Part shown: positions 41,161-41,464 of the stretch, piece by piece
Layout: every line of letters starts with the position of its first letter
Position numbering within the stretch: position 1 is the first letter of the stretch
Assembly: GCA_028716165.1 (NCBI GenBank)
Contig: JAQUQI010000014.1
Span: forward strand, 1 to 41,464
DNA: 41,464 nucleotides
Direction: 5' to 3'
Origin: Candidatus Omnitrophota bacterium
GTDB lineage: Bacteria; Omnitrophota; Gorgyraeia; JABMRG01
Made by a program: the position numbers and the translations under genes
Notes under the pieces: generated by a model
The model's input: only the letters and a program-made list of their open reading frames with translations
The model's database searches: none
Told to the model about the DNA's origin: nothing

Positions 41161-41237
41161 GGGCCCGTAGCGCAGTTGGTTAGCGCAGTTGACTCATAAT
41201 CAATTGGTCGTAGGTTCGAGTCCTACCGGGCCCACCA
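41161..41237 (+). tRNA. tRNA with anticodon CAT, probably tRNA-Ile2 (lysidine-modified)
   Basis: 77 bases with encoded CCA. Acceptor GGGCCCG/CGGGCCC, D-stem GCGC/GCGC, anticodon stem GTTGA/TCAAT with loop CTCATAA (anticodon 41195-41197), T-arm GTAGG-TTCGAGT-CCTAC. CAT could mean Met-elongator or Ile2. The G1-C72 acceptor with C4-G69 and C5-G68 and the GGTCGTAGGTTCGAGTCCTAC arm resemble tRNA-Ile2 of other bacteria, in which TilS converts C34 to lysidine to read AUA. Not an initiator: the first pair is matched. Its 3' end is copied in the repeats that follow. Confidence 0.9.
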
Positions 41238-41464
41238 TTTTTAGGACTCGAAGAGAGCCCTGCAATAAAATGCGACCAAGAGGAGCATTTTAAGGGCGAA
41301 TGGCCGACCCGAAACGAACGAAGTGAGTGAAGGGCGCCGAGTCCTACCGGGCCCACCATTTTTAGGACTCGAAGAGAGCCCTGCAATAAAATGCGACCAA
41401 GAGGAGCATTTTAAGGGCGAATGGCCGACCCGAAACGAACGAAGTGAGTGAAGGGCGCCGAGTC
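41217..41464 (+). repeat. 121-bp tandem repeat carrying the tRNA 3' end
   Basis: Units at 41217-41337 and 41338-41458 appear identical, and a third begins at 41459 and runs off the window. Each starts with the last 21 bases of the tRNA (CGAGTCCTACCGGGCCCACCA). Within a unit, TAGGACTCG (41242-41250) is complementary to CGAGTCCTA of the preceding tRNA 3' part and of the next unit; AAAATGC/GCATTTT nested in GCCCT/AGGGC forms a second hairpin; GGC..CCC/GGG..GCC a third. No open reading frame is credible inside. Confidence 0.9.

Follow-up and report, generated by a model that had tools for sequence, protein, structure and literature searches.

The short tandem repeats that follow the tRNA-Met(CAT) gene of a Candidatus Omnitrophota bacterium are probably copies of a mobile element of Omnitrophota, small and non-autonomous, which is aimed at the T-loops of tRNA genes and resembles the RtT repeats of Escherichia coli. 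Related copies stand behind at least 28 kinds of tRNA in this phylum. They carry an inverted arm that is fitted to the resident tRNA, and they are present or missing at the same tRNA gene in related species.

The repeat array behind tRNA-Met(CAT)

The window, by which we mean the whole analyzed stretch of 41,464 nucleotides, ends with the piece shown above. The single tRNA in this piece is tRNA-Met(CAT), recognized by ARAGORN and by Rfam (Table 1). Tandem Repeats Finder (TRF) reported a period of 121 bp with 100% matches and no indels for positions 41217–41464, and direct comparison showed that 41217–41343 is identical to 41338–41464 over 127 bases. The unit starts with CGAGTCCTACCGGGCCCACCA, the 3'-terminal 21 bases of tRNA-Met from C56/G57 of the T-loop to CCA. 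A preliminary description of this DNA had reported a tRNA (CAT) followed by at least two seemingly identical 121-base units and the start of a third, with units that begin inside the T-loop and carry the last 21 tRNA bases to CCA. The programs and the exact comparison reproduce this arrangement to the base.

Table 1. Features of the tRNA-Met(CAT) locus (positions in the window)
Feature	Position	Strand	Basis
tRNA-Met (CAT), host tRNA	41161–41237	+	ARAGORN and Rfam
Repeat unit 1, 121 bp, starts with 21 tRNA-terminal bases	41217–41337	+	
Repeat unit 2, identical to unit 1	41338–41458	+	
Unit 3, initial 6 bases; 100-N assembly gap next, beyond the window	41459–41464	+	
Unit 1 left arm TAGGACTCGAA, reverse complement of T-loop and T-stem 3' strand TTCGAGTCCTA	41242–41252	+	Covariation
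Unit 1 conserved core, GAGAGCCC...AGGGCGCC	41253–41338	+	
Core helix P2, 5' strand (partner 41293–41297)	41257–41261	+	
Core hairpin with conserved GCGAC-n-AGGAGC loop region	41266–41292	+	
Core helix P3, GGCCGACCC...GGGCGCC, nearly invariant among 27 elements	41302–41338	+	
Right copy of tRNA 3' end GAGTCCTACCGGGCCCACCA, providing one strand of the closing stem and the CCA tail	41339–41358	+	
Predicted CCA-to-CCA unit RNA, 121 nt	41238–41358	+	Analogous to E. coli RttR, annotated at 171 nt
Unit 2 left arm	41363–41373	+	

The window comprises the initial 41464 bases of a 42933-base scaffold, and its edge is not a contig end. Past the window, 100 Ns are followed by a truncated last unit and a tRNA-Val gene. 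The host genome (1.6 Mb, 27 contigs) is 95.7% complete. The stretch of exact identity equals the period plus 127 at Met-CAT (121 + 127) and again at Arg-ACG (142 + 127), and Ns follow both. Since identity ends at this length before the N gap, the array was evidently collapsed by the assembler; we infer that both arrays break off at a k = 127 overlap, where the assembly graph closed on itself. Two full units and one truncated unit are a lower bound for the copy number at Met-CAT. An identity stretch of period + 127 ahead of an N gap would also fit an assembly artefact, in which one copy was doubled at a contig edge. We regard this explanation as extremely improbable, because a gap-free array of three units with internal differences follows tRNA-Thr-TGT and because units are present in other assemblies too. 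Since the core recurs behind other tRNAs with 83–100% identity, the tandem match at Met-CAT is far above chance. The repeat at Met-CAT is real. The worry about an assembly edge, voiced in the preliminary description, holds for the copy number but not for the repeat itself, and the scaffold continues past the window.

Copies behind other tRNA genes

The core of the unit (bases 27–121) was found behind 7 of the 47 tRNA genes of the host genome, namely Met (in the window), Thr-TGT (three units), Gly-TCC (two units), Arg-ACG, Arg-TCG, Gly-CCC, and a second CAT tRNA. Six of these cores share about 93–98% identity with their nearest neighbor in this genome; for the second CAT tRNA this value is 85%. 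The first 20–50 bases of the unit vary from locus to locus because they consist of the 3' end of the resident tRNA and its flank. The distal units of arrays are frequently truncated. It had been considered that the repeat might recur only as low-complexity sequence lacking the tRNA part; this alternative failed, as the unit is present at many other tRNA 3' ends with the tRNA part included.

Two further kinds of loci were observed. At tRNA-Arg-TCG (L025:1960–4400; C1:287–290 kb), an insert of roughly 2 kb lies between two element copies; this insert has inverted ends of about 40 nt and contains an XRE-like ORF, as judged by eye. Tandem arrays of 94/95 bp that are cut by N gaps and have no tRNA nearby (L029:1019–1250 on C9 and L030:1137–1419 on C3) share the GCGACnnnnGGGAGC hairpin of the core.

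A strict DNA pattern, applied to about 85,000 species genomes, matched 27 contigs, of which 26 are titled Omnitrophota or Omnitrophica and 1 belongs to another bin; 25 of the 29 motif matches lie directly behind a tRNA. With a covariance model the element was detected in 18 of 59 relatives, and a tRNA is located just upstream in 27 of the 30 match loci retrieved from this search, weak matches included. The covariance model also found the element in at least 71 of 285 Omnitrophota genomes (about 25%), a lower bound obtained with tighter filters than those applied to the 59 relatives. The element was absent from the phage, plasmid, and viral collections searched.

Anatomy and predicted fold of the element

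At every locus, the same order of parts was found: the tRNA ending in ...TTC^GANTCC-acceptor-CCA, then a spacer, the T-arm copied in inverted orientation, the core, GGCGCC, and GANTCC-acceptor-CCA once more. The inverted arm copies the T-loop and the T-stem 3' strand of the host tRNA, and the structured core spans 75–130 nt. The right junction is invariably TTC^RA. At the left, a young single copy behind tRNA-Gly-CCC shows a perfect target duplication of 47 bp, 27 bp of which are non-tRNA flank, and a copy at the Glu tRNA of another species (L096) shows a perfect 43-bp duplication with decayed similarity beyond. In many older copies only the tRNA portion of the duplication is recognizable and ends at the tRNA end, so that only young copies clearly show a duplication that reaches past the tRNA. 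These examples indicate that the left boundary is variable and the right boundary is fixed.

A structural alignment of 27 elements from many species, chosen for matching arms, folds as a three-way junction. P1 is formed by the left arm and the right tRNA copy, P2 carries an apical GCGAC-n-AGGAGC hairpin, and P3 consists of GGCCGACCC...GGGCGCC. The closing stem P1 is 100% paired, and five of its eight pairs co-vary; co-variation was also detected in P2, in P2b, and at the tip of P3. Overall, 96.1% of the cells in this alignment are paired, compared to 37–43% with the partners slid. The unit in the window (41242–41347) folds with z = −5.3.

Since these 27 elements had been chosen by arm match, the arm test was redone in an anchor-free form on 77 elements from 28 tRNA species, picked by the P3 motif alone. 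In 67 of the 77 elements the arm is exactly complementary to its own tRNA over 9 nt or more; the corresponding rate is 8.5% with other tRNAs and 0.1% with shuffled sequence. The arm is poor in 10 elements, some of which are decayed. The arm matches T-loop base 59, which has no partner within the tRNA, in 27 of 27 cases, with 17 two-sided changes. The arm is therefore an inverted copy of the 3' side and does not reproduce the T-stem 5' strand. At Gly-TCC in the host genome (L007/L010) and at Gly-GCC in another locus (L099), the arm reads C-GAGAA where CTCGAA is expected. Two distant species share this one slip at the end of the T-loop, which possibly marks the position at which arm copying stops.

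Mobility and retargeting

In one genus represented by seven genomes, the element occurs at 36 of 144 tRNA genes, and 12 isoacceptor loci are polymorphic, with the element present or absent depending on the species. Empty sites, which the preliminary description had proposed to look for in relatives, were found for example at tRNA-Val-GAC, where an occupied and an empty species share the tRNA together with its flank and the gene that follows; target duplication was seen too. The T-arm is mostly identical between occupied and empty orthologues. Since the same T-arm is found with or without the element, the inverted arm was fitted to the resident tRNA, and not the reverse.

As a general explanation, import of a whole donor T-arm together with the element was rejected, since orthologues mostly have the same T-arm whether occupied or empty; Thr-CGT is an exception in one genome. 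At this tRNA (L240, G127) the T-stem is GAGG/CCTC in the sole occupied species and GTGG/CCAC in all empty relatives, a double change that coincides with the insertion.

The most similar cores are often located at different tRNAs in different species (Thr-TGT/Gly-CCC, 93.6%; Lys/Gly-CCC, 93.2%; Tyr/Val, 93.5%), and each of these neighboring cores has an arm fitted to its own tRNA. We conclude from these pairs that the element moves and that its arm is re-tailored. The Lys-CTT array in L260 contains two core types together; such mixed arrays grow by repeated insertion and not by slippage only.

This distribution also bears on the idea that the unit is not selfish, but a tRNA-linked regulatory RNA that benefits the host, is kept by selection, and spreads by gene conversion. 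The conserved core structure and the perfect arm pairing across the phylum would agree with such a role, as would E. coli RtT, which is transcribed and to which older work gave a physiological role. We nevertheless consider this explanation improbable, since the element is patchy at orthologous tRNAs within a genus, only about a quarter of the genomes are positive, and distal copies are truncated. Some host function that maintains these RNAs is conceivable all the same.

Relation to E. coli RtT

The repeats at E. coli tyrT have been a single-locus curiosity since about 1980. Older literature on tyrT includes work by Landy and colleagues and by Boesl and Kersten. To our knowledge, tRNA-Tyr is the only RtT site in E. 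coli. The tyrV/rttR units of E. coli MG1655 (L298:1211–1995) have the order AATCCTTCCCCCACCACCA - spacer - GGGGAAGGAT(GAG) - core - GCGCTGAGT - AATCCTTCCCCCACCACCA, and the annotated RttR RNA (171 nt) starts 8 nt past the tRNA and ends at CCA. The RtT unit is present in 4711 of 5426 E. coli genomes at a median of three places. The number of units varies among genomes, with up to 14 places, and MG1655 contains a fourth RtT copy on the far (5') side of tyrV.

Both RtT and the Omnitrophota element lie on the same strand immediately downstream of a tRNA gene and consist of head-to-tail units, each with a tRNA 3' end including CCA. In E. coli too, an inverted copy of the T-arm, GGGGAAGGAT, pairs with the tRNA-derived ATCCTTCCCC to form the closing stem; the Rfam RtT model (RF00391) is closed by this stem and has a CCACCA tail. 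The likeness to the E. coli tyrT arrangement, pointed out in the preliminary description, therefore extends to a target-derived inverted arm that was not named there. In contrast to RtT at tRNA-Tyr, the Omnitrophota element resides at 28 or more tRNA species, shows occupied/empty polymorphism and retargeting, and differs in core sequence and inner structure. An Rfam search with a relaxed threshold gave no match of the element to RF00391 up to E = 5 and, apart from the tRNA, returned weak matches only, all under gathering scores. In the reverse test, the element covariance model (R1) scored RtT with only 6.4 bits (E = 0.57). The first reading of this DNA had left a choice between a source of rtT-like RNA and a non-autonomous, site-specifically inserted mini-element, and both descriptions fit the layout, the many targets, the duplications, and the empty sites. 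The element is RtT-like in layout; sequence comparison does not support membership in RF00391 or homology of the cores.

How the element may move

The target duplications show that insertion at TTC^GA duplicates the tRNA 3' end and some native flank, so that the host tRNA stays intact. The left arm, which matches the host T-loop and T-stem 3' strand in inverted orientation, would be gained at or after insertion; alternatively, matched arms could result from selection or from palindrome correction after insertion. Later insertions at the same target add units head to tail, as the mixed-core arrays show. The tRNA and the array presumably share a transcript, from which tRNA maturation at each CCA may free a unit RNA in which the left arm is paired with the next tRNA copy, as in RtT RNA. 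Movement is most likely DNA-based and could begin with a nick in the tRNA 3' region. The nicked 3' end would fold back and copy the T-arm to give the inverted arm, then switch onto a donor core and return at the GANTCC motif that is common to all tRNAs.

A nuclease may assist this DNA route. GIY-YIG nucleases are encoded in every genome examined, with or without elements, and their co-occurrence with the element is therefore uninformative. Small GIY-YIG genes stand directly behind tRNA genes in three of six cases in the host genome (C19:3211–3426, C22:960–1163, and C7:24239–24442) and also in L158, L162, L168, and L252. These tRNA-linked genes are preceded by a second hairpin family (CCTGA-stem-GAAGG), often with an inverted copy of CCA and flank. 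It seems that nuclease genes in Omnitrophota generally tend to land at tRNA 3' ends.

The 121-bp unit contains no integrase gene. In the host genome we detected neither a reverse transcriptase (RVT_1, PF00078) nor a Y1 (HUH) transposase (PF01797), and its only two tyrosine recombinases have the size of Xer proteins and are located elsewhere. This inventory speaks against the usual engines, although the missing 4% of the genome may encode one, or a different enzyme may serve.

One such engine would be target-primed reverse transcription, by which the RNA of a SINE-like retroelement is reverse transcribed at a T-loop nick, leaving a fixed right and a variable left junction. The constant TTC^GA junction, the variable length of the target duplication, and the structured, non-autonomous RNA are indeed shared with SINEs and other non-LTR retroelements and with the tRNA-directed retrotransposons of Dictyostelium. 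This explanation is unlikely, however, because the host genome has no RVT_1 protein and the relatives show no clear link (reverse transcriptase in 6 of 18 genomes with the element and in 7 of 41 without it), and because reverse transcription alone does not explain the inverted, target-matched arm that sets this element apart from those retroelements.

A T-loop crossover point is known among tRNA integration sites. Genomic islands of the corresponding class, which are moved by tyrosine integrases, use tRNA 3' ends and generate direct repeats of them, and the units could likewise be tandem att-site remnants or mini-circles moved in trans by a tyrosine recombinase. We hold this to be very unlikely, since there is no integrase in cis and the host has only the two Xer-sized recombinases. 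Unlike such islands, the element is gene-less, measures about 85–130 bp, has an inverted arm tailored to each tRNA, and duplicates up to 27 bp of native flank. The palindromic REP/RAYT elements are also short mobile hairpins without a gene, but the Omnitrophota element is tRNA-specific and its host lacks a Y1 transposase.

Implications

A search of open-access literature returned nothing on the Omnitrophota element or on rtT RNA. One precedent for the layout is known; within the scope of our searches, the element's mobility, its wide range of targets, and its fitted arm are new. It is quite conceivable, though we stop somewhat short of favoring it, that these sequences form a separate class of mobile elements: gene-less, structured-RNA hitchhikers of tRNA genes that insert in the T-loop, restore the tRNA end, and add to their own end a copy of the target in inverted orientation, with E. 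coli RtT as an immobilized member. If so, each copy would be custom-fitted to its host tRNA. Since the RtT layout is now seen in a family that spreads and has dozens of copies fitted to their targets, the nature of the RtT repeats becomes a comparative, testable question. The element also poses a puzzle of mechanism, in that about 100 bp without a gene, in a genome with no detected reverse transcriptase or Y1 transposase, move and re-tailor their own end. Finally, the predicted CCA-ended, three-way-junction RNAs behind many tRNA genes could interact with the enzymes of tRNA processing.
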